Source of the DNA: a virus
DNA: 64,000 nucleotides
Direction: 5' to 3' (one strand)
IMG/VR virus record: IMGVR_UViG_3300020445_001256
Coordinates: 1 to 64,000 of that record
Made by a program: the position numbers and the translations under genes. Below the pieces are notes generated by a model, which was not told where the DNA came from, ran no database searches, and worked only from the letters and a program-made list of their open reading frames with translations. Each line of letters opens with the position of its first letter. Position 1 is the stretch's first letter. This document shows, piece by piece, positions 1 through 61,000 of this stretch.

Positions 1-1361
1 AAATAGAATATCGTATTACTATTCATAGAGATGGTAAAAGGATAGAAAATGCTGAAGGTGCATTTAACTTTAAGACCTTTTGTTCAGGATGGGAAATACG
101 GGAAGATTTTGCATTAGCAACAATGGAAGCATCCTTCATGTTTGAAGATAATGCTGGTTTAATTGCTGTATTAAGTGGTGCAGAAGAAATTAGATTACAA
201 GCATCAACTTCTACTTTAAATAGAGTTTATAAATTTAGAGTTTGTAGAGTTCATTCTCGTACTAGAGCAGCACAAACTACAGATTTCTTTATAGTTGACT
301 GTGTTAGTGATGAGTTTGTGAGGAATGAAGGTCTATCTGTTTTTGGTAATTCTGATGTTTTATTCAAGAAAACTAGAACAGCAGAATCTATGGTTGATAC
401 TTTAATCAGAAGTGATAGGTTCCTTAATACAAATAAGAATGTTTATCTAGAAGAAACAGTTAATAAGCATTCATTTGTTGCAGTTAATTGGAGACCATTG
501 GATACAATATACTGGATTGCCAAACGTAGTATAAGGAAGTCAAAGTTATCTGGTGGATTACAAAATGGATTTACTTTTTATGAGAATGCTTTAGGTTATC
601 ATTTTAAATCTATTGATAGATTGATTGATGATATTAATAATCAACCAAGAAGTGAAAAAACTAATTTTATCACAGGTGTACCTAGATTATACACATATTC
701 ATATAGTCCTAAAGGAATGGATGATGAAGTGATGGATCCTTATACTTTCCGTGGTGTTGCTTTTCCTGAAGAAAAGAATGTTTTAAGAAGTATGAGGCAT
801 GGTGCATGGTCTGGATATACTGTTGGATTTGACCCAGTTAATATTTCATCTTCTAAGATGGGATTAAGTAAAGATACAACAACTGATGATACTAAGTATA
901 ATATTGAAGATGTATGGTCTAAGATGTCACACCTTAATGGTAAGATGACTGTTGATCCTATTACACAAATGGATGTTAGCGTTCAAGAACAAGTGTTGAA
1001 ACCTAGAAGAGTTCGATATACAATGTTACCGAACCAAGCATTTGATCCTAAATTCAGTAACAATGCTCAACCAAATTATCAGCAATTAGCTGATTTAGAA
1101 GCATATCAATATATGAGGATAGAAACCCTTAGCAATACTCAACTTAGAGTAAATGTACCAGGTAATCTTGATTTATATGCTGGTTGTGGGGTTGAAGTTG
1201 CTTTACCTGGAACTTTTAGAATCGGACAAAAGGTTCAATTAGATAAAAGGTATAGTGGTAAATACCTTATCCATAAGGTAACTCATCAGACTGCTGCTGA
1301 TAACACCACATTTAATACTACCCTGACATTACTCAAAGACTCTATTATTAGAGATAAATAG
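1..1361 (+). CDS. Baseplate hub protein, gp27-like (5' end outside window)
   Basis: The reading frame is already open at base 3, so the first in-frame ATG at 123 is internal and the true start lies upstream. About 450 residues are visible. The text resembles T4 gp27-type hub proteins: an ENALGYHFKSIDRLI segment near residue 153 counted from the ATG at 123, and a long run of short beta-strands before and after it. In T4, gp27 forms the trimeric ring at the centre of the baseplate that carries the gp5 spike. The gp5-like gene 1.1 kb downstream supports this role. The stop codon lies next to a late-promoter-like GATAAATA at 1353-1360. Assignment to gp27 is by resemblance and order; another hub-associated protein is possible. 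Confidence 0.65.
   Translation, partial: IEYRITIHRDGKRIENAEGAFNFKTFCSGWEIREDFALATMEASFMFEDNAGLIAVLSGAEEIRLQASTSTLNRVYKFRVCRVHSRTRAAQTTDFFIVDCVSDEFVRNEGLSVFGNSDVLFKKTRTAESMVDTLIRSDRFLNTNKNVYLEETVNKHSFVAVNWRPLDTIYWIAKRSIRKSKLSGGLQNGFTFYENALGYHFKSIDRLIDDINNQPRSEKTNFITGVPRLYTYSYSPKGMDDEVMDPYTFRGVAFPEEKNVLRSMRHGAWSGYTVGFDPVNISSSKMGLSKDTTTDDTKYNIEDVWSKMSHLNGKMTVDPITQMDVSVQEQVLKPRRVRYTMLPNQAFDPKFSNNAQPNYQQLADLEAYQYMRIETLSNTQLRVNVPGNLDLYAGCGVEVALPGTFRIGQKVQLDKRYSGKYLIHKVTHQTAADNTTFNTTLTLLKDSIIRDK
1353..1360 (+). promoter_or_regulatory. Late-promoter-like GATAAATA upstream of cp12
   Basis: GATAAATA matches the T4 late box TATAAATA at seven of eight positions and lies about 32 bases before the cp12 ATG, a spacing like that seen before the structural genes of this window. 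It overlaps the end of the hub gene. It would let the metabolic genes be expressed with virion genes; this is inferred from sequence only. Confidence 0.45.
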
Positions 1362-1391
1362 TAATGACGTACCGTAAGGAGTCTTTAAATC

Positions 1392-1619
1392 ATGAAAACT
1401 ATAGAACAACACATCGAAGCGGATAGAGCAATCCTTGACGATCCCCAAACTAATCCTGCTGCACGTAGGCATTATAAAGAAGAATTACATGAACTAGAAG
1501 TTTATGAATCTCATCATCATGATGAGATAGTAGCTGGAGATCATCACGATCCTAATGCATTAGAATTATTCTGTGAAATGCATCCTGATGAACCAGAATG
1601 TTTAGTATATGACGATTGA
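1392..1619 (+). CDS. cp12: CP12-like Calvin cycle regulator
   Basis: A 75-residue acidic protein whose C-terminus matches CP12: an LELFCEMHPDEPECLVYDD tail with C61 and C70 spaced as in the C-terminal redox loop of cyanobacterial CP12. That loop bridges glyceraldehyde-3-phosphate dehydrogenase and phosphoribulokinase into an inactive complex. The N-terminal half is helix-forming and lacks the N-terminal cysteine pair of many host CP12 proteins. Cyanophage CP12 is known and is thought to shut down host carbon fixation so that reducing power flows to the pentose phosphate pathway and nucleotide synthesis. An AAGGAG ribosome binding site precedes the ATG. The gene overlaps cpeT by 11 bases, so the two are probably co-translated. 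Confidence 0.88.
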   Translation: MKTIEQHIEADRAILDDPQTNPAARRHYKEELHELEVYESHHHDEIVAGDHHDPNALELFCEMHPDEPECLVYDD

Positions 1620-2055
1620 TGACTATTTGTTAGGTCATTGGTCGAATAGACAACAAGCACAATCAAACCCTCACTCCTTTGCTCAGACAGAGATTATCTG
1701 GGAAAAGGAGGATGGATGGTATAAATCAAAAAATTTTTATCGTGTAGATGGTCCCGAAAAACCTTATAGACAGAAAAGACATAAGATAAGAGTCTTGGAA
1801 GATAAGGTGATTATGGAGAACTATCGCTTAGACTTGACAAGGAATGAAGAATGTGATATGTTATTCCTCTTTGAGGGTGATTCTTGGCATGGCAAATTGG
1901 ATAGTGAACGATGCAGGGGAGAAAGAGGAAACCGTATCGTTTCAGAAATTCATTTGTATGGTGACAAACTCCATTGTAAGGATCAGGGATTTGACTCCAA
2001 CAACAACGTTGTATGGGGGTCTCCTTATTTGTACCGTTTTATTAGGGTAAGTTAA
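1609..2055 (+). CDS. cpeT: CpeT/CpcT-type phycobiliprotein chromophore lyase
   Basis: A 148-residue protein with hallmarks of the CpeT/CpcT family: GHWSNRQQAQSNPHSFAQ near the start, a PYRQ segment around residue 52, ENYRL at about residue 70, a Cys-Arg segment near residue 101 and a GFDSNNNVVWGSP stretch near the end. Family members have a calycin-like beta-barrel and attach bilins to phycobiliproteins or act as bilin chaperones. At 148 residues it is shorter than the roughly 200-residue host enzymes, as phage copies usually are. It starts inside cp12, so the pair forms a two-gene metabolic cassette between two baseplate genes. It would act in the host cytoplasm on phycobilisome or phycoerythrin chromophores. 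Confidence 0.88.
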   Translation: MTIDDYLLGHWSNRQQAQSNPHSFAQTEIIWEKEDGWYKSKNFYRVDGPEKPYRQKRHKIRVLEDKVIMENYRLDLTRNEECDMLFLFEGDSWHGKLDSERCRGERGNRIVSEIHLYGDKLHCKDQGFDSNNNVVWGSPYLYRFIRVS

Positions 2056-2157
2056 GGAAATATAAGGACAACCTTTAGATATGACCAAAAGTAGCTAGAA
2101 ATACTTGCTTTTCCTGACATTCTATTATAAAATAGTCTGAAGCATCAAATCGAATCA

Positions 2158-2337
2158 ATGACTTACAAGCACCCTGAGAGAGTTTTGGAGAAACTCACTG
2201 ATGAGGAATGGGTAGAAATGATTGCTATCAAGCAGGCCATAGCAGAAAATCCTTCATCAGTTCATCCGAGAAAAATGGAATACTTTACCGAACTACTAGT
2301 CCGTTCGGATACCATTTATACAAGGAGAGTATCATGA
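2158..2337 (+). CDS. Small conserved-looking protein, unknown function
   Basis: A 59-residue reading frame starting MTYKHPERVLEKLTDEEW, rich in charged residues, with a helical N-terminal half. It ends by an ATGA overlap with the next gene. The 102 bases before it hold no gene and end in an AT-rich stretch with TATAAAAT near 2126. The 4-base coupling and codon pattern favour a real gene. Function unknown. Confidence 0.6.
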   Translation: MTYKHPERVLEKLTDEEWVEMIAIKQAIAENPSSVHPRKMEYFTELLVRSDTIYTRRVS

Positions 2338-2492
2338 GTGGGGATACAGGAATAGAAGAGCAACCACTTGTTTTTTATTCCAATGAAATGACCGAAGCTA
2401 AGAGAATTTTAATTAATAAGCATCGGATGTTAAAAATTAGTGGAGTTTATGTAAAAGAAAGGTGGAGAACAGGTAGTCCTATGCAGGGATAA
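2334..2492 (+). CDS. Small protein, unknown function
   Basis: 52 residues starting MSGDTGIEEQPLVFY. The ATG at 2334 is chosen over an upstream in-frame start at 2208 because an AAGGAGAG ribosome binding site lies just before it and it couples by ATGA to the preceding gene. The stop overlaps the late-promoter-like box of the gp5-like gene. No motif recognised. Confidence 0.6.
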   Translation: MSGDTGIEEQPLVFYSNEMTEAKRILINKHRMLKISGVYVKERWRTGSPMQG

Positions 2493-2495
2493 ATA
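2488..2495 (+). promoter_or_regulatory. Late-promoter-like GATAAATA upstream of the gp5-like gene
   Basis: GATAAATA lies 27 bases before the gp5-like ATG at 2515, in the position where T4-type late promoters sit. It overlaps the stop codon of the preceding small gene. Confidence 0.5.
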
Positions 2496-2514: not shown

Positions 2515-4827
2515 ATGAAGCTTGTTGATGGAATTGTTAATGAGAACGGTACGTCCTTTGTAGGGAAGGACGGTTTCTTTTGGTGGGTAGGAGAAGTTGA
2601 AGACAATGAAGACCCTATGGAATTGGGTCGTGTAAAAGTTCGTGTTCTTGGATACTATACCAGTTTTGATGGTGGTACTACTTCAGATCTACCTACAACT
2701 GGATTGCCTTGGGCAACAGTATTACAGCATACTTCTCAAGCAGGAAATAATGGTCAAGGTGAAAGTTCAGGACAATTACAACCTGGAGCAATAGTTTTAG
2801 GATTCTTTTTAGATGGTGAGATGGCACAGATGCCTATGGTATTGGGTGTCATGCGTGTTAATAAGTCAGAAATTACCAAAAATCAATCTTCCTTTGCATT
2901 TACAGATCAGGATATAGTTCCTGGAACCTCTATTAATAATTCTGCTGTTCATCCCGCAGAAAGAAATACTATTAATCCTACTGCACCATTAAGGCAGTCG
3001 GATAATAATTCTGTTGCAATACCTGGAAATAAATTAAGTAATATTGGTGGTAGTGGATCACCTAAGAATGTTGGATTGGGTATATTAGGTGGAACAACTA
3101 ATCCTATTAAACCTTCCACACCCACTAAACTTATACCTGCTGCTCATGGTGTTGGTGGTCCTTGGAAGACATTAGAATATAAATTATCATATTTAATAGA
3201 AGATCTTGCTAATACCTCAGCAAATTTAGTTAAGATTGACAAAGATACTTACTTAGATATTGTTATTGGTTCTTATATTAAGAAATCCGATTTAACTAAA
3301 AAGATTGATGACTACTTGAATGTTATATTCACTCAAGTAATATCTGCTATGCGTCAATCCTTAGCAAATCTAGCAACTAATTTGAAGGTTGATAATATTC
3401 TGAAGAACTCTTCGGGATTACCATTTGCTGCATATAATGTTATTCAACCAGAGGTTACTAAGATATTAACTTCATTGTGTGCTTTAGATGCTAACATTGC
3501 TACGTACAAAGCAGCACCAATGTCAACGATTAATACCTATCTGGATAGTTTCCTAGCAGGTGTTGATGATAAACCAACTTTAGTTAAGAAGACAGTTAAT
3601 ACTGTTGTTGCAGATATTGTTAAAGATTCAGCGAAGATCATAACTGGTGTTGGTGATATTGCTAAGAGTGTTAAGACAACTGTTAGTGGTATTGGAGAAG
3701 CAACTAAGATTATTGATGAGTGGGAGAAAGGAAGTGGGATATATGAATTAAATACAAATCTCTTTGAAACAGTAAATACAAATCTTACTGGGTTGATGAA
3801 ACTACTGACCAAATTTACAAGTAGTAACTGTAATAGGTCTTCAGCGACAACATCGTCCGTTGGGTGGTATCCTTTATATGGTATTACTACTACAGTGAAG
3901 GATGTGTATGGTACTATGTTTGATCAGGCAGATCCATATCTTACTTCTTCTAAGAACCATATTAATGGTTCATATGAATTATATCTTGGAACACCTGGTC
4001 GTCAGGGTGAAGTCCATAAGAAATCAAATGGAACAACTCATACATCAATTGCTTTTAATGATGCTCATTATTATGAGAAGAAGATTAGAGATGATTTAAG
4101 AAGTCAAATACCAGAGGAAGAGTATGCTGCTATTAGTTCTGATGTTATTGAAGCAAAAGTAAAAGAATATGTTGATAAGAATACTAATAATAAAGGGGAT
4201 ATTGGTGGTTTAATTGCAGATCATGTTTCTTATGCTGGAGCATTAACTCAAGAAGTTCATGGTGATGATTGTAAATTGGTTAATGGTTCTTATGTTAGGA
4301 CTATTGACGGTGACTATCATTTAAAGATAACTGGTAACTGTCATATAGAAGTTGGTGGAGGTTTCTTCCTTAGTGCTGAAGGTGCTGGATCTACTACACC
4401 ACAGAAGAATACTATTAAATTTGGATCTGATACTGATATGAATGTTGTTGGTGCTAAGTTTGAATTACAAGGTGCAGAGTGTAATGTGGCATCTATTTCT
4501 ACTAAGATAACAGGACATTTATTTGAGAATTCTTCTTATCAACAGACTATGAGTGCGGTAGAACTATCACTTACTGCTGATAATTCAATTGAAATGGTAA
4601 CACCTCATTTATTACAACTAATCAATATTGAAGAAAATGCAACACCTAAGAAACTGACTGGTATCCGTACCATTGTTTCTGGTGGGTGGGATACTCAGAT
4701 CAATCCATCAGATGTTAAGGGATATAGAATTTCCTTGACTTCTACACGATCTTCCTATAACCTGCCAGTGACGGACAATCTATTTACTGTCACAGTGGCA
4801 GACGCAGTTCGGTTGACAACCGCATAG
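2515..4827 (+). CDS. gp5: Baseplate hub / central spike protein, gp5-like
   Basis: 770 residues. The N-terminus (about residues 20-125) has the gp5 OB-fold signature: FFWWVGEVEDNEDPMELGRVKVRV, split here as a tryptophan-rich strand followed by LGRVKVRVLG, then GLPWATVLQ and PGAIVLGFFLDGE. The C-terminal third carries DGDYHLKITGNCHIEVGG, typical of the repetitive strands that form the triple beta-helix needle. The middle (about 220-440) is predicted alpha-helical and alanine- and isoleucine-rich; I see no T4-lysozyme-type catalytic region there. In T4 this trimer pierces the outer membrane and its lysozyme domain opens peptidoglycan. Here the puncturing needle is supported but the lytic activity is not. 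A sigma70-type promoter starts inside the 3' end. Confidence 0.82.
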   Translation: MKLVDGIVNENGTSFVGKDGFFWWVGEVEDNEDPMELGRVKVRVLGYYTSFDGGTTSDLPTTGLPWATVLQHTSQAGNNGQGESSGQLQPGAIVLGFFLDGEMAQMPMVLGVMRVNKSEITKNQSSFAFTDQDIVPGTSINNSAVHPAERNTINPTAPLRQSDNNSVAIPGNKLSNIGGSGSPKNVGLGILGGTTNPIKPSTPTKLIPAAHGVGGPWKTLEYKLSYLIEDLANTSANLVKIDKDTYLDIVIGSYIKKSDLTKKIDDYLNVIFTQVISAMRQSLANLATNLKVDNILKNSSGLPFAAYNVIQPEVTKILTSLCALDANIATYKAAPMSTINTYLDSFLAGVDDKPTLVKKTVNTVVADIVKDSAKIITGVGDIAKSVKTTVSGIGEATKIIDEWEKGSGIYELNTNLFETVNTNLTGLMKLLTKFTSSNCNRSSATTSSVGWYPLYGITTTVKDVYGTMFDQADPYLTSSKNHINGSYELYLGTPGRQGEVHKKSNGTTHTSIAFNDAHYYEKKIRDDLRSQIPEEEYAAISSDVIEAKVKEYVDKNTNNKGDIGGLIADHVSYAGALTQEVHGDDCKLVNGSYVRTIDGDYHLKITGNCHIEVGGGFFLSAEGAGSTTPQKNTIKFGSDTDMNVVGAKFELQGAECNVASISTKITGHLFENSSYQQTMSAVELSLTADNSIEMVTPHLLQLINIEENATPKKLTGIRTIVSGGWDTQINPSDVKGYRISLTSTRSSYNLPVTDNLFTVTVADAVRLTTA

Positions 4828-4866: not shown

Positions 4867-5076
4867 ATGTCTAACGCATTAAAAGGAGCACCATCTGAGG
4901 TTCTTGAGCATGTATTCGTAAACCTATCTAAAAGACAGGTTACCTTGCTAGACGAAGAGGGTTACACACAAGATGTGAACTTTAAGTTTGATGATGAGGG
5001 AGCAGAAGGATTCGCTGAGGTAGTTTCTACTCTCAATGAGAATCTAACAGAAGAAACATTGACAATATATGACTGA
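4867..5076 (+). CDS. Small acidic protein, unknown function
   Basis: 69 residues starting MSNALKGAPSEVLEHVFVNL, acidic toward the C-terminus. It is the first gene after the promoter at 4813-4841, with ACGAGG just upstream of the ATG. It overlaps the next gene by 8 bases. I do not recognise a domain. Confidence 0.7.
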   Translation: MSNALKGAPSEVLEHVFVNLSKRQVTLLDEEGYTQDVNFKFDDEGAEGFAEVVSTLNENLTEETLTIYD

Positions 5077-5314
5077 TATTCAAGATATAACAGAAGAGGA
5101 GGCAGTTTCAAACCTGCCTTTTCTTTTGGCTATGACTCAAAGAAATCGTACTGTTTGGAGAATTAAAAGTCCTAACGGTGCGATTGCTTTACTATCACCA
5201 GTTTTACAATCTGGACCTCCTGTAGATAAGGAAGTCTTGGAGACTGTTGAGGACTTCAGGAAAGGTTTTATGGAGAACACTCCTGAAGATGCAAAAGTTG
5301 ACACTACGGCATAA
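5069..5314 (+). CDS. Small protein, unknown function
   Basis: 81 residues starting MTDIQDITEEEAVSNLPFLL. It begins inside the preceding gene and its last codons contain the next promoter. A central NRTVWRIKSPNGAIALL stretch suggests a small beta-rich fold. No known family recognised. Confidence 0.65.
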   Translation: MTDIQDITEEEAVSNLPFLLAMTQRNRTVWRIKSPNGAIALLSPVLQSGPPVDKEVLETVEDFRKGFMENTPEDAKVDTTA

Positions 5315-30469: not shown

Positions 30470-30541
30470 ATGTGGTACATTATTTTCTGGACAGCAATTA
30501 CTATGTTCATACTTGTTAAAGTAGGTGCATTTAAGAAATGA
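30470..30541 (+). CDS. 23-residue putative membrane peptide
   Basis: MWYIIFWTAITMFILVKVG is followed by AFKK and a stop that overlaps the methyltransferase start as ATGA. One hydrophobic helix with a basic C-terminus is the typical design of small membrane peptides. A TATAAT lies at about 30442 after the terminator. It could be a real small protein or mainly a leader that couples translation of the next gene. Confidence 0.45.
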   Translation: MWYIIFWTAITMFILVKVGAFKK

Positions 30542-31506
30542 AAGATACAATATTATTTGGAGATTGTCGCAAGACATTATCAGCATTTCTACCAAATAGT
30601 GCTCGTATGTGTGTAACAAGTCCACCATATTACGGACTAAGAGATTATGGTGGAGAAGATAATCAAATAGGTTTAGAACAATCACCAGAAGAATATGTTA
30701 ATGAGATGGTGAAAGTATTCAGAGAAGTTAGAAATATATTGACTGAAGATGGAACACTATGGTTAAACATAGGTGATAGTTATTACAACTATCGTCCTGG
30801 TAAGGGTGCTAATTACCCTAAGCAAAGTGTTAGTGAGACTAGACAAGATTTACCTACTAATAGTAACAAACGTGCTAACAAATTAGAGGGACTAAAAGAG
30901 AAAGATTTAATCGGTATTCCTTGGATGTTAGCATTTGCATTACGAGCAGATGGATGGTACTTAAGGCAAGATATTATATGGCATAAACCTAATCCAATGC
31001 CTGAAAGTGTAAGAGATAGATGCACTAAAGCACATGAATATATGTTCCTCTTAAGTAAGAATAAGCATTACTATTATGATAATGATGCTATTAAAGAACC
31101 AGCAAAAGATTGGGGAACCAGAGATAGAACTAACGGCAAATATCATAATGAGGGAACAGGATTACAACCTCATTCTGGTCTCACTAAATCATATCCAAAG
31201 AAGAATAAACGTAGTGTATGGAGTATAACTAAGAAACCATATAAGGGTGCTCATTTTGCTACTTTCCCACCTGAATTAATCATCCCATGTATTAAAGCAG
31301 GTTCAGCACTAAATGATACTATCATTGACCCATTTATGGGATCTGGAACTACTGCAATGGTAGCAAAATCATTAGGTAGGTATTACTTAGGGTGCGAATT
31401 ACACGAGGATTATGGTCATTTAATAGAGCAGAGAGTGAGAGAATATCATGTGCCAACTGACAAAGTGGTACATAATGGACTGACAACCCTCTTGGATCGT
31501 GTATAA
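30538..31506 (+). CDS. DNA methyltransferase, beta-class (second copy type)
   Basis: 322 residues. Motif IV TSPPYYGLRDYG begins at residue 27 and the S-adenosylmethionine motif DPFMGSGTT spans 264-272, again the beta order. SPPYYGLRDY is typical of phage and archaeal N4-cytosine or N6-adenine methyltransferases without a linked nuclease. It is not closely similar to the enzyme at 27175, so the specificities probably differ. The stop codon overlaps the -10 of the promoter for the structured RNA downstream. Confidence 0.87.
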   Translation: MKDTILFGDCRKTLSAFLPNSARMCVTSPPYYGLRDYGGEDNQIGLEQSPEEYVNEMVKVFREVRNILTEDGTLWLNIGDSYYNYRPGKGANYPKQSVSETRQDLPTNSNKRANKLEGLKEKDLIGIPWMLAFALRADGWYLRQDIIWHKPNPMPESVRDRCTKAHEYMFLLSKNKHYYYDNDAIKEPAKDWGTRDRTNGKYHNEGTGLQPHSGLTKSYPKKNKRSVWSITKKPYKGAHFATFPPELIIPCIKAGSALNDTIIDPFMGSGTTAMVAKSLGRYYLGCELHEDYGHLIEQRVREYHVPTDKVVHNGLTTLLDRV

Positions 31507-32055: not shown

Positions 32056-33384
32056 GTGGAAAACTCTTTAAGTCGAACCTCTGCAAACATAAGTCCTCAA
32101 CACTTATTAAATTTACATTATGAAGGAGATTTCCATTTGAAAGACACATTGAGACCTCACCAGTTGCGTGCCTATAACTCAATGAGTCAGGCAAATCATG
32201 GTCAAATTGTAATACCTACTGGTGGTGGTAAAACATTTATTATGATAGCAGATTGCGATAGGATACTATCAACTAATGGAAGACCTCACAAGACATTTGT
32301 TGTAGTTGCACCTCGCATATTACTTGCTAATCAGTTATCTGATGAGTTTGAATCTGCTCTTAATAATGTTAGTATTGCACACGTACATAGTGGTGAAACA
32401 CATCATTTTAGCACCACAGATCACAGATTTTTAACACACTGGGATAGCACAACTATCAGTGATAAGATTATATTTACTACCTATCATTCACTTCACAGAG
32501 TATTAGATAGTATGGTAGATATTGATAGAATATATTTTGATGAAGCACATAATGGCACTGGTAAATCATTCTTTAAGCAGATAAAAAGAGTTGCTGATTT
32601 ACAAATATCACGTTTCTTTTTTACTGCTACTCCTCGTATTGCACGCTCTAAGAATAACATTAGTGCGGAAAGAGGTATGAATAATGCGGAAGTTTGGGGT
32701 AATATATTAGAACAAACAACAGCACAGGAGTTAATAGATAGTGGCACTATCTTATACCCTAAAGTTATACCATTTGAGAACGATAGAGAGAGAACTAAGT
32801 TAAACGCACATGAAGTAGATAGTGATAACTTAAAGGACATACTTACCAACATAACTGATAACAATCCAAAGGTACTTGTGAGTGCTCCAACAACAAGAAT
32901 ACTATGGAATATGCTCTCACAAACTGATATTAAAGACTGGTTACATGAGAGAGAATATAACATTTTACACATCACATCTAAGCATGGTGCTATCATTAAT
33001 GGTAAGAAAGTTGGTAGAGAAGAGTTCTTCAAATTGCTTACAAAATGGGGTAAAGATGATACTAAGAAGATGATAGTCTTCCATTATAGTATACTATCAG
33101 AGGGCATAAATGTTCCTGGTTTGACTCATTCAGTGATGCTAAGAAATCTACCTAATATTGAAATGGCACAGACAATAGGTAGAATAATTAGAATACATGA
33201 GAAGGACAAAGTTGCAATGAAAGAGGGTAAAATACCTGCTGGTCAGTATAACTTATACCATAAAAGTCATGGTCAAATATGTGTTCCAGTATCAGGTAAA
33301 TACGGTCAAAGAATAGCAAAAAGGTTGCAATCTGTCGTTTCATATATCTTTATAGAGGGTATTCCACCAGTTGCATATGTTTAG
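32056..33384 (+). CDS. Superfamily 2 DEAH-box helicase
   Basis: 442 residues, GTG start at 32056 behind GAGGTGATC. Motifs: I PTGGGKT at 54-60, II DEAH at 162-165, III TATPR at 190-194 and VI QTIGRIIRI at 372-380. This is a complete SF2 core comparable to phage UvsW-type or type III restriction-like helicases. In T4, UvsW resolves branched DNA and controls origin use. Whether this is the UvsW equivalent cannot be decided here. It is driven by dyad-promoter copy 2 and followed by copy 3. Confidence 0.85.
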   Translation: MENSLSRTSANISPQHLLNLHYEGDFHLKDTLRPHQLRAYNSMSQANHGQIVIPTGGGKTFIMIADCDRILSTNGRPHKTFVVVAPRILLANQLSDEFESALNNVSIAHVHSGETHHFSTTDHRFLTHWDSTTISDKIIFTTYHSLHRVLDSMVDIDRIYFDEAHNGTGKSFFKQIKRVADLQISRFFFTATPRIARSKNNISAERGMNNAEVWGNILEQTTAQELIDSGTILYPKVIPFENDRERTKLNAHEVDSDNLKDILTNITDNNPKVLVSAPTTRILWNMLSQTDIKDWLHEREYNILHITSKHGAIINGKKVGREEFFKLLTKWGKDDTKKMIVFHYSILSEGINVPGLTHSVMLRNLPNIEMAQTIGRIIRIHEKDKVAMKEGKIPAGQYNLYHKSHGQICVPVSGKYGQRIAKRLQSVVSYIFIEGIPPVAYV

Positions 33385-46062: not shown

Positions 46063-49000
46063 ATGACAAGTATCAATAAGGTTTCACAGGCAGTCAATAG
46101 ACAGACTCCCGAATTTGTAGAGCAGGATTATCCTCTCTTTAATAAGTTTCTTGAGTATTATTATCAATCTCAGGAAAAAACAGGTCTAGGACAGAATATT
46201 CTTAATAACTTCCTTGGTTATTTGGATATTGATAAACTAGACATTAGCATTCTGGATGGTGCAACGAAGGTAGTAGAATCAATAAGTGCGACAGACGATA
46301 TAATAATTGTAGAGAGTGTTGATCAATTTCTTGAGAACGATGGTTCTGTTCTCATAGGTGATGAAGTAATTTACTATGAAAAAGCACAAGCTGGACCCAA
46401 TATTGCTCTAAGTCCAGGTGTTTCTTATGATCAGGTTAAATTAAAGTGGATTAACCTTGCAAGTCCATTAATGAGTTTTGATGGGTCTAGACAATCTTTC
46501 CCATTAACATCTCAAGATAATCCTATTGCTCCACCTTCTGTGCAGCATTTGATTGTTAGTAATTACGGTAAGGTTTTAATTCCTGGTACAGACTATAGTG
46601 TCGAAGGAACAAATATAATATTCACTACTGCTCCTAGAACTAGAATACCTGCTGATGATGCGTCATCAACTTATATTACTTACTTAAACGGTTTTAATGA
46701 GAATACGATTGTTGCTTTAGACAATCTTTCTGGTAGTTTTGGTGAAAGTAAGAGACAATTTACTATTACTAGATCTGGTGCAAGATATGAACCTATTGCT
46801 GATGAATATGTTCTTGCAATTTATGATAATCGTCTATTAACTCCAAAAGTAGACTTTTTCATCGATGGTGATCAATTTATCTTCTTAACAGCACCATTAA
46901 ACGGTAGATTCCTTTCATTATTCTCTATTGAAGCACCTATTCCTTCTTTTGGTGCTGGTGCTGTAGGTTATGCACGTATTAGTGATACTGGAACTCTAAC
47001 TGGTATTTCTATTAGTAAAAATGGTACTGGATATAAGTCTGAGTATCCTCCAAAGATTTCTATTAATACTGAGAATGGTAGCGGTGCTTCTGCTTCTGCT
47101 TTAGTTAATGGTCTTAAGAGTATTGCACTATTAGAAGGTGGTCAGGGATATAGTAGCACTAATCCACCTGTAGTTCAAGTTCAAGCACCTACTGCTGTAG
47201 GAGCAACTGCAGCAACTGTTTCTGCGACTGTTACTAATGGTGCTGTCAGTGCTCTTACAATCACTAATTCTGGTTCTGGATATACATTCACACCTAGAAT
47301 CACTTTCAGGCAACCAGGAGGTGCTGTACTAGGCACTCCAACCGTTGTTAATGGACAGATTACTGCAGTAAGTATTACTAGTTCTGGTTTTGGATATACA
47401 ACTGTTCCAACAGTCTATATTGATGAACCAACTGGTACAAATCCAATTAAAGCAGCGTTCCAAGCAGTTTTAAGTAGTGATGGTGAAATTACATCCATTA
47501 ACATTTTAAATGCTGGTCAAGGGTATACATCTACTCCTAGAATGGCAGTTATTGACCCAGTAGGTGCTCAAGTTCTTGAAACTACTGTTGATAATCAAGG
47601 TAGAGTAACAAATATTGAACTTTTAAGTGGTGGTGTAGGTTATAGTGATGTTCCTTCTGTTTATATCGTAGATAACAGAACTGATGCTACTGGTGCATAT
47701 GCTGGTGGAACTGGTGCTATAGCAACTGCATCAATCTTCAATGGTCAGATTACAGATATTAATATTAGTGCTTTTGGTGGAGGATACAGTCAATCTGCTC
47801 CTCCCGTGGTTGTTATTCAAGCACCTCCTGCTGCTGAAGCATCTGCGGAGATTGGTTTAAATGAAGTTACTGGTTTTACAGTAAATCAAGCTGGTAGCGG
47901 ATATCAGAAGGCACAATTGACTGGATGTGCTCGTGCTGCGTCTTCTATTACTTCTTATACGGAAAGTGGTAACGCAATATTTACAAATAATACTATTGCA
48001 TCTGCACATGCGGTAGATGAACCAATTAAGTGCTTAGATGCGTTATTTGTTAAGAGATTACTTGACAAGTACACAGAACAGTATTTACCAGATGTTCCTA
48101 CATTAGATTACTCTAAAATTGATGTTAGAACAGCAATTAAGACAATTAAGGACTTTTATAGTTCTAAAGGAACATCATATAGTATTGGATATCTCTTTAA
48201 ACTACTTTATGGTGAGACAGTTAGTATATCTTATCCTAAAGATCAGATAATCAAACCATCTGCTGCAACATGGTCTATTGACACTATTTTGCGTGCTACT
48301 TTAGTTAGTGGTGATCCTACAGATATTCAAGACGGTCTTTTAACCCAAGAAGCGGATATTGCTGACCTTAATGTTAAAGAAGCAAGTGCTCTTGTAGAAA
48401 ATTATATTTCAATTAGAACATCACAAGTTACCATATATGAATTAGTTCTTTCCGAAGAAACTATTGCGGGAACCTTTATTGTTCCTTATAAGACAAAATT
48501 AGCAGAACCGCTTAATAAAACTGAATCTATTATTACTGTTGACTCTACAATTGGTTGGCCTGAAAGAAACGGTGAATTTATTATTGGTAGTTCAACTGAT
48601 ACTAGAGAAATTGTTCAATATAAGGAAAAATCATTAAACCAGTTCATTGAGTGTACTAGATCAGTAAATGGTGTAGTTGAGGACTGGGATTCTGCTACAG
48701 AGGTAAAATCTAACTTTAATGTTTACATTAATAAGGGAACTCCTCAAGAAGTGGTGATGAATATTGTTGGTATCGTTGATGCTCAACAAACAACTCTTAC
48801 TGATACTGGATCTTACTACTTACCTGGTGATAAATTAACAGTTTCTAAGTTAGGTGGAACAGGAACTACTCCTGAACTTACAACTTGGTTGTATAACGTT
48901 AAAAAATTAATCGAAGTTACTTCTGTAGCATTTGGTGGTATTAATAACCAATCCGCGACTATTACTTGTAAGAATGATCACGGTCTTTTGGTAGGAGATC

Positions 49001-52000
49001 AGGTAACCATCTATGGTGCTAACCCAATCCTTTATAATGGAACATTTCTTGTAACATCTAGAGATAGTGATACTGTTTTCCAATATGCATTACCTCAACC
49101 TGCTACTGTTATCCCACAGGGTAATATTCTGGTATCTATTGACCTTAACAAAGGTAAATCTACTAGTACTGCAATAAACAATGCTATTAGTCCTTATACG
49201 ACTAACGTTCAGAACTCATTCTTTAACGACAATTACGTTTATCTTGCTTCTACTGGTATTCCAAACTATAATATTGGACCTTTCCCAGGATCAGCACTTC
49301 TTCCTGGTAACCAAAGAAAATTAACAAGATTCCCTAAAATACCTACTACAATTTCTACAAAGGACTTAATTGGTGCTGGTCCAATTGGAACTTGGGTAAA
49401 TGGTGTTTCTGTATGGTCTTATAAGTCAAGTTTAACTAAGACATTTGGTGCTATAACAAGTATTGGCATTACAAATGCTGGTTCAGGTTATGATGCTGCT
49501 TCTCCTCCTGCTATTACAATTTCTGGTGGTGGAGGTTCTGGTGCTACTGCTTCCGTAGTTGTTGACGGTGCTATCAGTGAAGTTACTGTAACTACTGGTG
49601 GATCTGATTATACATCCTCACCATTGGTCTCTATAGTCGGTGGAGGAGGGTCTGGAGCTGCTGCAACCGCTATTATTACTAAAGGTGTTGTTTCACGTAT
49701 TCTAATCAATTCTGGTGGAACTGGATATACTTCACAACCTCAAATTACTATTGTAGGTGGAGGTGGTTCTGGTGCTGCTGCTACCGCATCTGTTAGAGGT
49801 CCGATTAAAACTATTAACGTTGCTTCTGGTGGTTCCGCATACACATCTAAACCTAGTGTTACTTTAAGTTCTGGTTCTGGTGCTGTTGCACAAGCAATTG
49901 TACAGAATGGACGTATTATATCAATTGCTATTATATCTGCTGGATCTGGATATACTACTGCTCCTGAAATTACTATTCAAGGTGATGGTTTTGGTGCAGT
50001 TGCTAGAGCAACTATTGACGTTGATGGAGAAAATGCTGGTAGAGTTACTAATATTGAGATTATTAACCGAGGTATTGGATATCTTCAAGGAACTACTATT
50101 ATTAATCTAGATTCAGTTGGATCTTCTGCATTATTCAGTGCAAATGTATTTGAGTGGACTTATAACTTACAATCAACCGCAACTTTAGACTCTGCAAAGG
50201 GTGGTGTATTTGAAGGATATAATAATCAGTATGGTGGTGAATATGCCCACCTTTCTAACCCACAAACACTAAGATATATCTTAGGTGATAACCTTTATGA
50301 GTCAAACACTGGTACAATCCTAGAAAAAGAGGATTCTGTTGTTCACTCACCTATTATTGGTTGGGCATTTGATGGTAACCCAATTTATGGTCCTTATGGA
50401 TATTCTGATCCAACTGACCAAGGTTCTGTAATAACTAGATTGAGTACTTCATACAGGGTTAAACCTGCTCTTATATATGATGCTGCAACTAATCCATACC
50501 CAGTTAGAACTGATGGACCTTTACTTACGGATACAGATAGTAATGGAACTCTATTGTATCCATATGGTTCTTTCGTTGAAGACTACGAATATGTTTTTGG
50601 ACTAGGGGATCTAGACCAATATAATGGTCGTTTTTGTAAAACACCTGATTATCCAACTGGTAGATATTGCTATTTTGTTACTATTGACAATACTACTGCT
50701 GGTAATCCTGAATTCCCATATGTTTTAGGACCAAGTTTCAACTCTGTTGTAGATAAGTGGAATTTAAGCACTTCTGCTGTTCAGCAGAACATTCCTACTG
50801 GTGTTGTCCGTTATAGAGACCCATATGAGAATGTTGACATTGATGTATCAAGAGCACCTAATGTTTCTACAAATGCTCTTACAACTGAATCTGGAGATAT
50901 AATCTTATTTGAAGTAGAAGATGAAGATAGAAGTGGTGTAATAGATCAGATAGAAACTGATGATCCAGATCAAATGTTTGAAGAATCACCTTTACAGTTA
51001 TTTGATTACTTCCCTAAAGTAACATTTGACTCTAAAGTTGATATTGAAGTAGAAACTATCACTAAATTTGAAGATGCTTCTGTAAATGGATTTACTATTG
51101 AAAACCCAGGTATTAACTATCAGGTTAATGACCGTTTAGAATTTGATAATACTGGTACTGATGGTACTGGTGTTTCTGCTCGTGTTTCTAGAATTAAGGG
51201 TGAAGCAGTTGAAAGTTATAGTTTTGAAAACATTAGTGGAGAGAATTTTGGTGTTTTAAAGACTACAGAACCTCATAACCTAGTAATTGGTGATAGTGTC
51301 TTTGTGACATATAATCCAATAATGAATAATACGAACAAGACCTTTACTGTTCGTCAATTCAAAGGTATTGAAGAAATTGTTATTAATCAGACTGGTTCTG
51401 GTTATAATTCTGATATTCCTCCAACAATTACTATTGATAGTGCTACTGGAAGTGGTGGAGAATTACAAGCAGTTGTAACTTCTGTTGGAGCAATCGAGAC
51501 TGTTAATATTATTAATTCAGGTTCTGGATACACAACTAATCCTCGTGTTATTCTTTCACATCCACAGGTGTTTAAGAAAGCAGATTACTATGTTTCTAAG
51601 ATTGATAATAACAACTATGTTAAAGTAAATGACGTTGTTATTAATGAAAATAAAGAAATCTTTATTTGTGGTAAAACAAAGGATACTAATGGTAACGAAA
51701 TTGGTTTTGTTTCTAAATTATCTGCAACTGGTGTTAAAGAATGGGAGAAAAATTTAGAACTTACTGGTGGTGGACAATATTGTGAATTCCAAAAACTTTA
51801 TGTTGATGGAAATGATGTTTGGGTTGTTGGTAACAATAGACCAAATAGTAATCTTTTAGATTCATATAACCCAGATATTATTCTAGCCAAGTACACTCAA
51901 GCATCAAATGGTCTTAGTGCAACACTAGGATTCCAGAAAGGATATGCTGGTATTTCTGGTTCTACTCGTTCTGATAGTGTAACTGCAATTACTAAACTTT

Positions 52001-55000
52001 CTGATACTAGATTTGTTATAGGTGGTTATACAAATACAAACTCAACTAATCCTTTTGATGCATATATTGCTCTTATTGATACAACAGGTAATTTTGCACT
52101 TAAGAGAAAGGTTGCAGGTACTACTACTTCAGAAAAAATTACTGGATTAGTTGTTAATGCTGGTAATGTTTATTTCTCTGTAGAGAGTGCTGCAAGTCCT
52201 AATGCTACTGCTATTGATCTTGGATTAGGTAAAGCAACAATTGGTACTAGTGCAATTACTATTGATTATGTTAAAACATATTCAAATACTTCATATTCAT
52301 TCTTAGATTCTAGTATTTGTATTGATGAATTTAATGAAATTTATTTAACTGCAACTTGCAGACTTAAGGCAAATAATACAACAAAGAATAGTTTCTGGGT
52401 TGGTAAAACAGATATTGATGGTAATCTTATTTGGAACTATAGGTATCAGATACCTAATGAAAGTGGCACAGAATATGCAATTCAAGCAGTAAGTAAGACT
52501 GCAATTGATGTTTTTGGTGATCTTAACGTTGGTGTTACTTTAACAAGTGGAATTAACGGTCTTAAGACTGCAAGATCCTTTAAGATTGGTTATAGTGGTA
52601 ATCTTAAGGAACATTCATCTAATCTCTTCAATCTTAATAATGTTGAAGGTGTTACTATTAATTCGTTAGATGTTGATAATTCTGGTGATGTTCATCTATA
52701 TGGTCAATCTTCTTGGAATAGAAATGAATTCTTATTACCATTCACAGGTGGAGCAACAACAGATACAACTGGTCATTATACTCCAACTATAGTAACTACA
52801 GGAGGTTCATTAAGTTATGAAAATACTGTCCAAGGTGGATATGCAAAAATACTCGGATCTCAACTTGCAAGTCCAACTGTCTGGGAAAATGCTTACATTA
52901 AGTTCCCAGCTGCGGATCTTGGGACTAAACTTGCTGACGATTGGACTATAGAATTCTTCCTTTATAGGGATAGTTCAAATAGTAATGTATTCAGTCAAAA
53001 TGAAGAAACTCTAATTTCTATTGGTGATGCAACAGTCACAACTGGTGGTCTTTGGTTATACTTTGAAATTAGTACTGGTAAGATTGGATTAGCAGTTACT
53101 AATAATACTACTGCTTTAAATGCTGGAAGTGCTCAACTTAGCACAGCAACCACAATATATGCTACTAATACTTGGCAAACTATTGGATTAAAGAAAGAAG
53201 GAAATATATTTACTGTTTATAGTAATGGTATTCAAGTAATTCAATCTACAGTTCCTGATACTTCATTAGGTAGTAAAGATTTAGTTATTGGTAATATTTC
53301 TGGTAGAAGTGGAACTCTTAATAACTGGCGTTCAAATGAACAGGGTCAATACCATGTTGATAACTTACGTTTGAGAAACAGAGCAGTTACACCAACTGTT
53401 CCTAGTGATATTGGTGTTTTACCTCTTGCTGGAGCATTTTCAATTGGATATAATTGGGAAGATGATGCTTGGTTTACTACTAACTTAAACAAGTTTGATT
53501 ATATTGATTACACTGGTATTGGTATTAAAGTTGATAAGAATGCTGATGCTGCAAGAGTTGGTACTTATACAGAAAGAACTAATACTAAGTTAGGATTTAT
53601 TAGAGCAGATGAAATAGGAACTACTATTACTCCTACATCACTTACTGTTGTAACAACAGGATTTGCATTAGCTGATGCTGGATTCCAAGGTTTAGACTTT
53701 GATGATGCCACTATAACAATGGCTCAAGATACTGAGACTATGACCTATACTCAGGACGTATGGAGTTCTAGAACTGCTACTGTTCCTTCACCAGGTTCTC
53801 AGAAGTTATCTGTATCTGCTGTAGTTAAAGACAAATACTATTTCAAAGTAACTAATACTATAAAAATTGATAATGTTCAAGAACTTACTCTAAATCAGGC
53901 GTTTAATTTTACTACAGGAACAAAATTAAGACTTAATAATAATGCAGGAACCTTTGTTAATAGTGGATACATTATCAGACAGGATACTACTAATAATAAA
54001 ATATATCTTGCAATTAATAATAATGCTTGGTCTAATGATCTAAACACAGGTAACTTAGTTACAGAACAGTTTAGTGAGCAAAGCACTTATGGTATTGTTG
54101 GACCTATTCCTGCTGATGTTAATGAAATTGTAGGATATACATTTGCTCAGGTTAACAATACAACTCCTGGAACATTTGATATTGATCTTGATGATTATAA
54201 TTTAAGTGGTACTGGTTATAATGCAGGTGGTGGACAAGACCTTGATAGTTATGCTAAGTTTAAACCTTATTCTGATAATGATTATTCAGTAAGAATTGAT
54301 GAAGTTACTACTGGATCACCATATATCGTTGGTTCTGTTATTAATATTACCGATAGTAATATTTCATATAATGCTGCTTATTCTACTGCACAAATTACTG
54401 GTTTAACTGCAGTTACCAAAATTACATTAGTTGCAAATCTAACTAAGATTCTTCAAGTTAGTGCAGTATCTAATAGTGATGAAGTTTATGTAATTACTGG
54501 AACAAGTCATTACCTTTCTGCAGGTGAGATGATTTATGTTGATGGTAACCCAACAGAGAACAGTCTTGACGAGTATGATGGTGCATTTGCTGTTAATTCT
54601 GTTGTAAGTCCATTAGAATTTACATATAAACTAAAACAGGTAGCAACTACTTCTCCTGCTACATCAGCAGGTAGCGTTAACATATTTGTTAAATCTCCTG
54701 TATTGAAGATGTATTATGGTCACCAGTACATCTTTGACATGAGTCATAGTTCATTACTTGGTGGTAACTTATCATTCTCTAAAGATAACCTATACAAACT
54801 TGAATATTCATTCAACTCAATTGAAAGAACTGGAACTCCTGGTGTAAGTGGAGAAGGTGTTCCTACACCTATAGTTAAGTTAAAAGTTGATGATAATATT
54901 TTAACTAACATATCATACTACTTTGATCCTTCAAGAATTGGAGCAGATTCTCCAATTAATCCTTCTAGTTACCTAGATGTTACTAATTCTCCATATAAGG

Positions 55001-58000
55001 GAACATTCTCAATTAGTTCTGTTGCTGGTGCAACAATTACTCGTGGTGCTGATACATTCAAATTCCCTCTATTAGATGAACCAGAAGGTGATGCTGAAGT
55101 ATCTCAGACAACTTATAGTACAAGTTCTGTTAAAGCAGTTGGATCTATATCTGATGTTCGTATTGTCAACTCTGGTGGATTCTACACTAGACTACCAATT
55201 GTAAGTAGTATTACTTCTACAAGACAGATTGAAAGAGTTGCTATTGAGGATCCAGGTACTGAATATGCTAATGGTGTTTATAACGCTGTTCCTATTGCTG
55301 GTAATGGTGAAGGTGGATTAGTTGAAATTACTGTTGCTGATGGATTAGACAGTGAAGGTGTAACTATTCCAGGTCAAATTCAAGCAGTTACAGTTACTTC
55401 TCCAGGTAAAAATTATACTACTGCATCAATTGATATTGAAGCAATACCTGGTATTCTTGGAGCAGGATTAACTGGTTCTGGTGCTAAATTAACTGTTGTT
55501 ATTCCAAATGCAGGTACTCAGGCATCTATCTTTACTAAGGCAGATAAAGTTGGTAAGATTAAGAAACTTAAGAATAATAACTTTGGTTATGATTATCCTC
55601 ATGACTATACACTACGCCCTGAGATTTCGTTCCCAATAAACGCACAGCTTACTTCTACAAGTATTCTTTCTAGTATTACTGTTACAAATCCAGGTTCTGG
55701 ATATTCACAAGCACCTGCTGTTGTAATTACAGGTGGTGGTGGATCTGGTGCAACTGCAGAATCATCTATTAAGAATGGTAGATTAGACATAATCATTGTT
55801 AAGGATCCAGGTGCTGGATATTCTTCTACACCAACTGTTTCACTTAAGTCTTCATTCAACTATGTTGTTAACCTTGACTTAGGTCTTTTACAGTTTGCTT
55901 TCCCACATGGTATTACAAATGGTGCTGCTGTAACTTTAAACGTAGTTGATACAGGAGATGGTGCTGATTTCCCACTTGCTGCTGGTGCTGTTGGTCGTCT
56001 TAATGGAACTACTACTTATTATGCAATTTCTGGTGCTGCAAATTCACTAGAAAATGACCAATTAAAACTTGCTCTTACTGCAGCAAATGCTGAATTAGGT
56101 GACGCTCTTTCCTTTGTTAACGCTGGTGAAGGTCGTCAACAAGTATTAACTGAATCATTTGGTGGTTCTGCTACTGCAAACGTTATCACTTCTACTTTCT
56201 TAGAAGGAGAACTTGTTTATCAAGGTGATTCATTAGATACTGCAACTGCTACTGGATACGTTTCTACTAACCAAGGTTGGCAGATTGGACCTAGAATTCT
56301 TAAGATTGTTGATTATACTGGAACTTTCGCAGAGACACAAAAGGTTACTGGTGTTATTTCTAAGTCTTCAGGTACTATTAGTGATTTAAATATTGCTCGT
56401 GGTGTTCTTGAAATTGGTTCTATCACTAAAACTACTGGTCAATTCATTGATGATGTTGGTAAACCATCTGAGATTATTCAGAAGATCCAAGACTCTTACT
56501 ATTATCAGGACTTCTCTTATGCTATTAAGTCTGCTGTTTCTATTAGTGAGTGGAAAGAGATTCTTATTAAGAACGTTCACCCTGCATCATTTAAGGTATT
56601 TGGTGAGTTAAATCTATCTGATTATGGATTTATTCCAAATAAAGATACAGATTTCCAACTTACTAAGTCTGTTGAACTTGCAAGAGAAGCGATTGTTCCA
56701 AATATTCAAAGTTTTGCTCTTGTAGAACCAATTTACTCAGAATTTAATAATACAGAGGTTTTATTCCGTCAGAAGAGATTGACATCTTCTGAGAACATTT
56801 TGACTTCTGTTGTACAGAGAATTGATGATATTTCTGGTCAATTTGATGGTGAGAAGATTGCATTCCCTCTAACAGTTGATGGCAACACCGTTGTTGCTAA
56901 CGCTAATCAGTTAATGATTGTTTTGAATGGTATTGTTCAGAACCCTGGAACTGCATTTGAGATTCAAGGTGATTCTATCGTCTTTAGTGAACCACCACAA
57001 CCACCTGCAAGTGTTAAGTATGTTAATATTAAAATATCACAGATTGCAATTGTAAGTAATACATTTACTAACCAAAGTGGTATTTTCCCAAGTCCAGGTA
57101 ATGTTTTAACTGGAACAAACTCTGGTGCTAAATTGACTGTAACTTCTGTTGTTGGTGATACTATATTTGGTTTCATTACAGAAGGAACATTTATTGCTGC
57201 AGAAAACGTAACTGTTAGTGCAACTGGATTTAGTGCTAACTTAGATGTTCAAAGTAATGTTTCTAATATTGGATTATTCCAGTATGGAGAACAAGTTAAG
57301 AACTTAACTAATGATACTGCTAAAGTAGAACAGATTAACCTACAAAGAGGTTTGGAAAATGCATTAGCACAATTACGTTATACAGTTGGTCCTTCTACAA
57401 CTTCAATAGAAGTAGTTCCTGATGGATCAACTACAGATGGTCCTGTTCCTGCTGGAACATTTACAACCAGTACAAGTTATCAACTTGGATCTGAAGTTGT
57501 TACTGTTACTAATATTGTTGATGGAAATGATTCAACAACTCTAACAGTTAGCAGAGGACAAAATGGAACAGTTGCTGTTTCACATCAAGAAGATTTCCCA
57601 ATTTACGGAACTGTTATTGCAGTAACAGATGAACTTACTTTAAGTAAGACTGCTGGAACATATAAGTCTACTCCAGGTCTATTTGATATTCAATTAAATG
57701 ATGTTATTATTGGTGCTAAATCTGGTGTTGTTGCTCGTGTTACTCAAACAAGTGCATATCAAGATCCTACAACTCAAGAATTTATAAGTCAGGTTAATAT
57801 TTCTGAAGGATCATCATTCTTTGGTCTATTGATGAATAGAATTTCATCTACATCATATCCAAATATTGTTCTTGATGATATTTCTAAATCACAAGTTAGT
57901 GTTGTTCAGTATACTGATAATACTACTGCTTTCAACTCACAGTTCCCTGCTAATGAACAACTTAATAATATCGTAGTTCCTTATGATAATCTAGTTGGTG

Positions 58001-61000
58001 GACCTATTCAAGAGAATGAAACTATTAGAAATTACAAACTTAAGTATGGTGGAAATACTGGTGAATTTATTGCTGGAGAAGGTGCGAGAGCAAGAAAACT
58101 TTCTTACATCAATCCTAAAGGTGATGGATTCTTTGCTAAAGGTCAAGTACTTAGAACTCAAGATACTAAAGCAGAAGTTCTTGGATTTAATCAGGCAGAT
58201 CAGGTAATCTATCTTGGTAAAGTTGGTAGAACAAAGGCAAATGGTCAAGACTACCATATCCCATCATTCTCCAATAGTGCTCAACTGGATACCACAGTCA
58301 AATACTATGGAACTGCTTCATTACAATTAGCAGCAGCAACTAACGATTATGTCACTATTCCTTCTTCAAGTGAATTTGCTTTTGGAACAGGTGCATTTAC
58401 TATAGATCTAATGTTGCGTCCTGCTGCATCTTCTATAAGTGGAACTGCTACTATACTTGATATGAGAGCATCTGCTGCGAATGAAGTTGCTGGTAGACTA
58501 TACTTACAAGCAGGTCAAGTTCGTTGGAACGTTAATAATGCTGATATAGTTACTTCTGGTGCTACAGCTCTTACTGCAGATACTTGGGTTTATGTTTCCA
58601 TTATGAAGTCTGGTACAACAACTAAGATTTTATTAAATGGAGTTGAAGCAGGTACAGCAACAGATAACACAACATATGTTGCAAAACCAATTAGATTAGG
58701 TTCTGATTATGCTGGTGCTAATAGTTTAACTGGATTCATTGATGAATTAAGAGTATCTAATACTAACCGTCATCAAACAATTCCATTTACTCCTCAGAAT
58801 GGTATTTGGCAGGGTGATGCTAATACTAAGTTATTATTACACTTTGATGGTGCTGATGCTCAGACATGGACTGAAGATTGGTCTGGTGCAGAAGGATTTA
58901 CTGCTGGTGAAGACTTTAATAATGATGCTATAATAGCTTCAACTCGTTCTTCTAATGCTACTCCTGGAGGATTTACTGGTAATACTCAAAGATATTATGA
59001 TGCTGCTGATTTAATTCTTCTTAATAAGGAATTCCTTGCTCAAGAAGTTGTTTATATTCTTAAAGAAAGACATCCTCATCACACTGTTAAGGGTAGTGAA
59101 GTTGATTGTGAAGATGATGTTCGTGATGTATTAGATGCTATTATTTCTGACCTTCGTAATGGAACAAATAATAAGATCTGGGATGCATCTTCATACTATG
59201 TTGATAGAACATCATCTCCAATCGTATTGAAGTTTGTTTCTAATGAAGTTGATGAAGTAGTTTACACTTATGACAAACTTGAGGAAATGCTCAAGTATAT
59301 TGTTAATAATACTCTTTGGGATGTTCAAGGTGATCATGGTTTAGTACAGAAGACTGATTCTACTATTACAGAAGCTAGTGGTTTAACCACACAAACCTTC
59401 CAGCCTACTGCTGCTGCATATGATGCAGAAAGTGGTTATATGGTATTGACTGCTTCTGGACATGGTATGAGAGCAGAAAGAGGAATTACTGCAACTGGTG
59501 CTAGTTATACTGCAACAACAGGTGTTTTACAATTAACCGTTGCTACTACCACATTTAGTGTATCTACTGCAACTTATGACCATACAACTGGTGTTATGGT
59601 CATAACAATTGGTTCTCATAGTTTGACAACCAATGATAATATTAGAATTGCCACTGGTGGAATTACATTTAGTTGTAACAACGGTGGAGTTAGTACTGGT
59701 GCATATCCTCGTGCAAATGGTGCTAATACAGAGAGTGGTGCTGACTATGCATACGATAGATGGCTTCCAATCCTTGCTGTAGGTGCAACAACTATTACTG
59801 TTAATGTTAATGGTGGTAAGGGTGCTATTAGTCATGCCTTTGCACACACATATTCAACTTCTTCTGCAGGATGTATTACTGCTGGTCATGGTCTTAATGA
59901 GGGAGATAGAATCAAGTTTGATCCTAATTCTCTTGTAATGAATTGCACCTCTGATGGTAATACAGTTAATCAGAGTTATCCAAGACCTGATGATCCTGCT
60001 GCTCAAGGTTGGTTAGAAGTTATAGAAAATACTAGTACTACATTTGATGTAAACGTTGGTAAATCACCTACTGTAAATTATACAGCAAGTGCTGGAACTT
60101 ATGATGCTGATACTGGTTTCTTAACCATGAATATTGGTCAGCATAACCTAAGAACTAGTAGAAAGTATACTGCAACTAATGCTGATTACACTGCATCTTC
60201 AGGTGCAATGAAGATCACTATTGGTGATAATATTGATGTTCATGATGCAAGTTATGTTGCTAAGAATGGTTTATTAAAATTAAATATTGGTCATCACAAC
60301 TTCAAACAAGGTAGTTTAGTTAAGATTGCTCCTAACTCACTATTCTTTACATGTAGTATGGATGATCATCAATCAGTTCATGCATATCCAAGATCATCTG
60401 ATCCTGTTTACAATGATGATATTGAAGTTATTGATATAACTGATGATACTATTACTGTTGATGTGGGAACATCTCCAGAAGTTTCATATACACCTACTGG
60501 TGCAACTTATAACACCTCTACAGGTGACATGGTTCTTACCATTGGTGCTCATAGTTTAGCTGCTGGAACTAGTATAAGACTTTTAGATGAATCTATAGCA
60601 TTCAGTTGTAGTTTTGGTAGTGGTGGTACTAGTTCATATCCTCGTCCTACAGTAGACACTAAGAATGTTCAAACAGCATCTTATAATCCTCAAAGTGGTA
60701 TATTATCCGTAACAACCACTGCTGCACATAACTTAACTGGTCCTACTGCTAAGAATGTTACTGATGCTACTTACAATGCATCTACAGGTATTTTACAATT
60801 AGAATCTGCTGGTCATGGATTTAGTCTTGGTGATAAGATAAGAATTAAAGATGATGCTTTAGTGTTTACTTGCACTAAAGATGGAAATGCAACAAACCAT
60901 ACATATCCAAGATCAACTGATCCTGTAAGTGGTCAATGGTTGACTATTGTTGCTAAAGCAACTGATACGATTGATCTTCAAGTTGGTGCTTCTAAGATTG

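Follow-up and report, generated by a model that had tools for sequence, protein, structure and literature searches.

An eight-base box of the late promoter type, GATAAATA, stands just upstream of cp12 at the start of the DNA analysed here and is conserved before cp12 across relatives of the virus. We give a probability of roughly 0.52 to the reading that this box is a gp55-type late promoter that would supply CP12 and CpeT in the late phase, possibly atop an earlier supply. The promoter would head a short unit of cp12, cpeT and two small open reading frames (ORFs) between a tail gene and gp5, the latter with a late-type box of its own. Transcription by gp55, gp33 and the clamp would then make CP12 and CpeT during virion protein production, and an earlier supply may come from transcripts running in from upstream or, in those relatives whose spacer leaves enough room, from a host-type sigma-70 promoter. 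The window, as we call the whole analysed stretch of 64,000 nucleotides, is the beginning of an 87,447-base virus record that is itself a fragment; judged by its gene content, the virus is a T4-like cyanophage, a phage of marine cyanobacteria.

The window opens with a tail gene followed by cp12, cpeT, two small ORFs and gp5, all on the plus strand (Table 1). cp12 and cpeT overlap, as a preliminary description of this DNA had stated, by 11 nt and, together with the two small ORFs, occupy the interval from 1361 to 2515. That description placed them between baseplate hub genes, which holds on the right, where gp5 is a hub protein; on the left, however, the families matched by the upstream gene are of the "tail protein" kind, and its match to "baseplate hub" is marginal (phrog_196, E 0.0093). 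The late-type box overlaps the 3′ end of this phrog_350 tail gene, covering its final two codons and the first two bases of the stop codon. For the second small ORF the start is ambiguous, at either 2334 (52 aa) or 2208 (2208-2492, 94 aa). In a promoter and terminator scan of positions 900-2700, promoter predictions were near shuffle level (9 found vs 6.5), and the interval 1361-1392 had no terminator-like site among the predictions.

Table 1. Genes at the start of the window and late-type boxes within it.
Feature	Position	Strand	Match or remark
Upstream tail gene	3..1361	+	phrog_350, E 1.5e-125; 5′ end cut off by window start
Late-type (gp55-type) promoter box, candidate, GATAAATA	1353..1360	+	begins 39 nt before cp12 ATG
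cp12, 75 aa	1392..1619	+	PF02672, E 4.9e-13, 50.1 bits vs cut-off 22.7
cpeT (CpeT/CpcT family, T-type phycobiliprotein lyase-like), 148 aa	1609..2055	+	PF06206, E 2.3e-17
Small ORF, 59 aa	2158..2337	+	phrog_14124, E 1.5e-20; function not assigned
Second small ORF, 52 aa	2334..2492	+	no convincing family (best E 0.092)
Second late-type box GATAAATA	2488..2495	+	27 nt before gp5
gp5, baseplate hub and tail lysozyme	2515..4827	+	PF06714; phrog_694, E 2.7e-274
Third copy of GATAAATA	starts 8708	+	32 nt before tail-fibre ORF at 8740

The cp12 translation carries the C-terminal CxxxPxxxxC motif, with C61, P65 and C70 invariant across 9 aligned proteins. It has neither the canonical N-terminal cysteine pair, there being no cysteine before C61, nor the AWD_VEEL core, and it is therefore classed as a phage-type rather than a canonical CP12; the N-terminal pair is also missing in some accepted CP12s, such as that of S. 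elongatus (PMC9406205). CP12 is described as interacting with GAPDH via its CxxxPxxxxC end (PMC9406205), and the motif here should bind host GAPDH, helping to keep the Calvin cycle down. A sequence search at E 0.01 returned no relatives of this CP12 among solved structures. The cpeT product scores 63.9 bits against PF06206 (cut-off 21) and also matches phrog_488 (E 6.5e-54) and the structure 5hi8_A (E 6.7e-06); it should handle the attachment of bilin to phycoerythrin.

The box consensus NATAAATA has been described as the cyanophage late promoter (PMC2984593), and in the window it is found on the coding strand at a short, fixed distance from cp12. It is of the same kind as the T4 late promoter, whose 8-bp TATA-type box is recognised by gp55 acting with gp33 and the gp45 sliding clamp (PMC2988020), although the candidate here begins with G where the T4 box begins with T. 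Raw counts alone do not prove the box. Within the window both GATAAATA (3 vs 6.6 expected) and ATAAATA (10 vs 34.8 expected) are depleted; all 10 copies of the latter lie on the plus strand, and the full record holds 13 on the plus and 0 on the minus strand. The evidence beyond chance is conservation.

Among 303 sequences (302 loci and the window), 260 had a usable plus-strand cp12 start lying 130 nt or more inside the sequence ends and 43 were dropped; several loci proved to be one contig fetched repeatedly, and merging at a 9-mer Jaccard index above 0.5 left 113 dereplicated clusters. The loci are restricted to the best matches to proteins of the window and of P-HM2, so the proportions given here are not those of all cyanophages. 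NATAAATA occurs at -46 to -24 of the cp12 ATG in 70 of the 113 clusters and the relaxed form N[AC]TAAATA in 86. The exact box is present in 50/55 clusters with cp12 at the hub and cpeT beside it, 9/42 at the hub without cpeT, 3/4 beside talC and 8/12 in other contexts. By comparison, the box was found at 0/45 cpeT starts, 0/7 talC starts and 12/369 other plus-strand ORFs of at least 100 aa, while at cp12 itself permuted motifs reached 4, 5, 4 and 5 of the 113 clusters and NTATTTAT none (0/113). Across 812,518 bases of loci, 210 box sites lie on the plus strand and 3 on the minus strand. In hub sequences with cpeT, the tail stop codon sits at +6, +2, -1 or -7 relative to the box, or 21-55 nt before it (a few rows unresolved), and the same eight bases are kept despite this shifting register; the box is thus not a by-product of tail-gene coding. 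Its conservation at cp12 exceeds both chance and coding constraint, which confirms the late-type box that the preliminary description had pointed out at 1353-1360, and the box looks selected.

With gp5 boxes sought in a 150-nt stretch near the estimated gp5 start, 49 of the 54 scorable hub clusters with cpeT carry the exact cp12 box together with a gp5 box, either exact (34) or CTAAATA (15), so that the unit in this architecture is bounded by late-type boxes. In hub clusters without cpeT the boxes are mostly missing (29 of 39 scorable clusters have neither the exact cp12 box nor either kind of gp5 box), and cp12 there is just one more gene in the row from tail gene to gp5. In both architectures cp12 lies within a virion-gene neighbourhood, which lends anatomical support to late transcription. 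We found no statement of the conserved, register-independent cp12 box or of the two-ended arrangement in the open-licence papers that our literature searches covered; these are the new detail, the gene arrangement being mostly known already. Irregularity of the boxes counts against a late-promoter reading: besides the 9/42 figure for hub clusters without cpeT, not even N[AC]TAAATA is present at cp12 in 25/97 hub clusters, Syn9 has only the CTAAATA variant, and a longer CP12 form (see below) has the exact box in 11/25 hub clusters and 7/26 others.

Phage CP12 is usually viewed as helping to provide nucleotides for replicating the genome, which belongs to the middle phase. The preliminary description instead took the box to suggest late timing, which is plausible given the conserved late-type box, the virion-gene setting and the boxes at both ends in most hub relatives with cpeT, but goes beyond the evidence, since the box alone does not separate late from middle. 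P-HM2 carries this box at -32 of a cp12 located outside the hub, yet transcript measurements put that cp12 in the middle cluster (PMC5082946), so that "late, not middle" does not follow from the box. The 184-kb P-HM2 genome has 31 copies of NATAAATA on the plus and 3 on the minus strand, standing before gp51, gp25, gp8, gp4 and structural ORFs, and also before cp12 and psbA (-45), the latter likewise reported as a middle gene (PMC5082946). These two genes serve as a warning that expression class is not readable from the NATAAATA box alone. Also against late timing, 95% of the genes common to P-HM2 and P-SSM2 are reported to share a time cluster (PMC5082946). According to a review, CO2 fixation halts at about 2 h with S-RSM4, which has cp12, talC, gnd and zwf, vs about 4 h with S-PM2, which is without them (PMC10452541); the earlier halt points to early or middle action of such genes. 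Late expression from the window box is likely, judging by the box and its setting, and middle expression would be compatible too.

Possible, though doubtful, is a dual or mainly middle mode: a host-type sigma-70 promoter, or else read-through, would switch on cp12-cpeT in the middle phase, and the late box would just extend its expression, in line with a proposal made for cyanomyovirus psbA. The middle-phase RNA of P-HM2 cp12 is in keeping with this, as are reports that cyanomyovirus psbA combines sigma-70 and gp55 motifs and is expressed early and late (Puxty et al. 2018, PMC5931967), and that S-PM2 is believed to achieve its middle mode by way of early and late promoters that overlap (PMC2984593). 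Where a spacer of 20 nt or more separates tail stop and box, 13/15 hub clusters have a -35/-10 pair of sigma-70 type scoring at least 10/12 beside the late box (shuffle mean 0.36, maximum 2), and in 7 of these 13 the -35 lies wholly within the spacer, but the 15 spaced clusters are kin of one another. An initial scan had found pairs of at least 10/12 in 36/111 clusters (shuffle mean 4.6, maximum 9). A general sigma-70 promoter upstream of hub cp12 was nonetheless rejected, since where the tail gene abuts cp12 the -35 is often the tail-protein codons TTG ACA CAT (LTH); in this abutting group 15/57 clusters reach 10/12, 12 of the 15 with the -35 on conserved LTH/VTH codons, and the sigma-70 evidence was for this reason restricted to the spaced group. 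The P-HM2 candidate (10/12, p 0.1) would put its -10 hexamer merely 8-13 nt before the ATG. At cp12 of the window, where box and tail stop overlap, no sigma-70-like site is detectable (best 9/12, p 0.6), unlike in S-SM1; the late box and read-through are left as the visible options. The psbA genes of S-PM2d and other cyanomyoviruses resemble the window cp12 as metabolic genes with a late-type box (PMC5931967), but they stand alone behind long upstream spacers and carry sigma-70 as well as gp55 motifs, whereas cp12 here shows the late box only.

Rather improbable is that cp12 and cpeT are passive members of the hub region, transcribed along with the tail genes that precede them, the box not being their main source of transcripts. 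Such a course would suit the 29 hub clusters without cpeT that have no boxes, and in the window it would suit a tail gene that abuts cp12 with no terminator-like site listed between them; it leaves unexplained why the box is retained in 50 of 55 hub clusters with cpeT, across registers, and why it recurs at cp12 beside talC. That a short A+T motif has turned up here by chance, with ATAAATA expected some 35 times in the window, we regard as refuted by the strand bias, the fixed position, the control motifs and the register-independence.

Should hub cp12-cpeT truly be late, as the gp55-type promoter reading would have it, virion production, too, would benefit from the shut-off of carbon fixation, and cyanophage groups would differ in the timing of that shut-off. 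Late protein synthesis has been argued to be the energy-limited step (Puxty et al. 2018, PMC5931967). Tentatively, then, many cyanomyoviruses may treat this Calvin-cycle brake as a virion-phase gene, holding fixation down and servicing the antenna through energy-limited protein synthesis; with gp55 transcription tied to the replication clamp, the dose of cp12-cpeT would scale with the replicating phage genomes, and phages with cp12 beside talC, such as P-HM2, might differ from hub phages in the time of shut-off.

The hub layout of cp12-cpeT is ordinary, widely shared and no novelty. Searches of phage records with tblastn gave 362 matches for CP12 and 245 for CpeT, and the order tail gene, cp12, cpeT, other genes, gp5 is annotated in P-SSM3, P-SSM4, P-SSM7, Syn9, S-RIM2, S-RIM8, S-SM1, S-ShM2 and ACG-2014a, with cp12 labelled as a hypothetical protein in several of these records. 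Of the phages with the same gene order as the window that were compared (P-SSM4, P-SSM3, P-SSM7, Syn9, S-SM1, S-RIM8, S-ShM2 and ACG-2014a), most have NATAAATA before cp12; Syn9 and S-ShM2, unlike the window, have no exact cp12 box, and the interval between cpeT and gp5 varies in these relatives, holding tRNAs, pcyA or other ORFs. tRNA genes directly follow cpeT in S-SM1, Syn9, S-RIM2 and S-RIM8, and none was found in the window (1-64000). S-CAM9 and ACG-2014j show tail gene, cp12 and gp5. Elsewhere, cp12 adjoins talC in P-HM2 and MED4-213, where it has CATAAATA at -32 and, unlike in the window, lies far from the hub; it lies among talC, ptoX, gnd and zwf in S-TIM5 and ahead of baseplate wedge genes in P-TIM68. 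In total, of 15 phages whose cp12 surroundings were inspected, 11 have the gene at the hub; the set was hand-picked and is no survey. That talC and cp12 are found beside psbA or close to gp5 was already reported by Sullivan et al. 2010 (PMC3037559). Queries with talC, psbA and gp55 of P-HM2 gave no match in the 87-kb record, which says little because the record is a fragment. In P-HM2 itself (171718, L306:27718), the box 45 nt before psbA is AATAAATA.

The word "inserted", used in the preliminary description, is apt relative to phages such as P-HM2, in which no gene separates tail gene and gp5 at the hub, the former ending and the latter starting at base 14775. In the gp5-anchored sample of 81 sequences, 20 had no tail end in reach and all 61 resolved junctions hold a CP12-type gene and cpeT (51 with the window-type CP12 and 10 with a longer form). 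This longer, divergent CP12 (96-101 aa, phrog_2603) shares the hub slot with cpeT at, for example, L188:2764-3066, L202:2837-3124, L212, L222 and L223, and the four proteins scanned match PF02672 over their last 24 residues as well as phrog_2603. An apparent absence of cp12 at some hub sites was discarded, the 10 loci without a tblastn match actually holding this form. At the junction of tail gene and longer CP12, 9/10 loci have GATAAATA and 1/10 has ACTAAATA; the wider sample cited above is less regular. We take the longer form to be T4-GC 63, because PSSM2_066 bears that number and T4-GCs 63 and 337 are both mentioned by Sullivan et al. with reference to CP12 (PMC3037559).

Leaders between box and cp12 ATG were also examined for structure. 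Stems occurred in 34/54 hub leaders (shuffle mean 15.1, maximum 23) and, after dereplication, in 19/34 (9.5, maximum 16), vs 14/65 leaders of other box-bearing genes (10.6, maximum 17); 49/70 cp12 leaders fold at -1 kcal or below, vs 1/29 for gp5. A conserved hairpin was rejected, as an alignment of 39 leaders showed no supporting covariation and the common stem is not in the window. A short stem directly after the box is possible in many cp12 leaders, for example at L020:4977-5000 and L005:2025-2057.

Further along the window, a small gene downstream of gp5 (5069-5314) belongs to the phrog_375 "Phd-like antitoxin" family (E 1.6e-18), and P-SSM3 and S-ShM2 have a gene of that name at the equivalent position. 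Genes resembling a DNA methyltransferase (30538-31506) and a DNA helicase (32056-33384) lie in a stretch of ORFs, most of them small, that precedes the baseplate wedge genes, which are gp25-like (43631) and gp6-like (44050). Directly after these, a single open frame of at least 5979 codons covers 46063-63999 and continues past the window end; P-HM2 has a 13.4-kb gp7 at the corresponding place.
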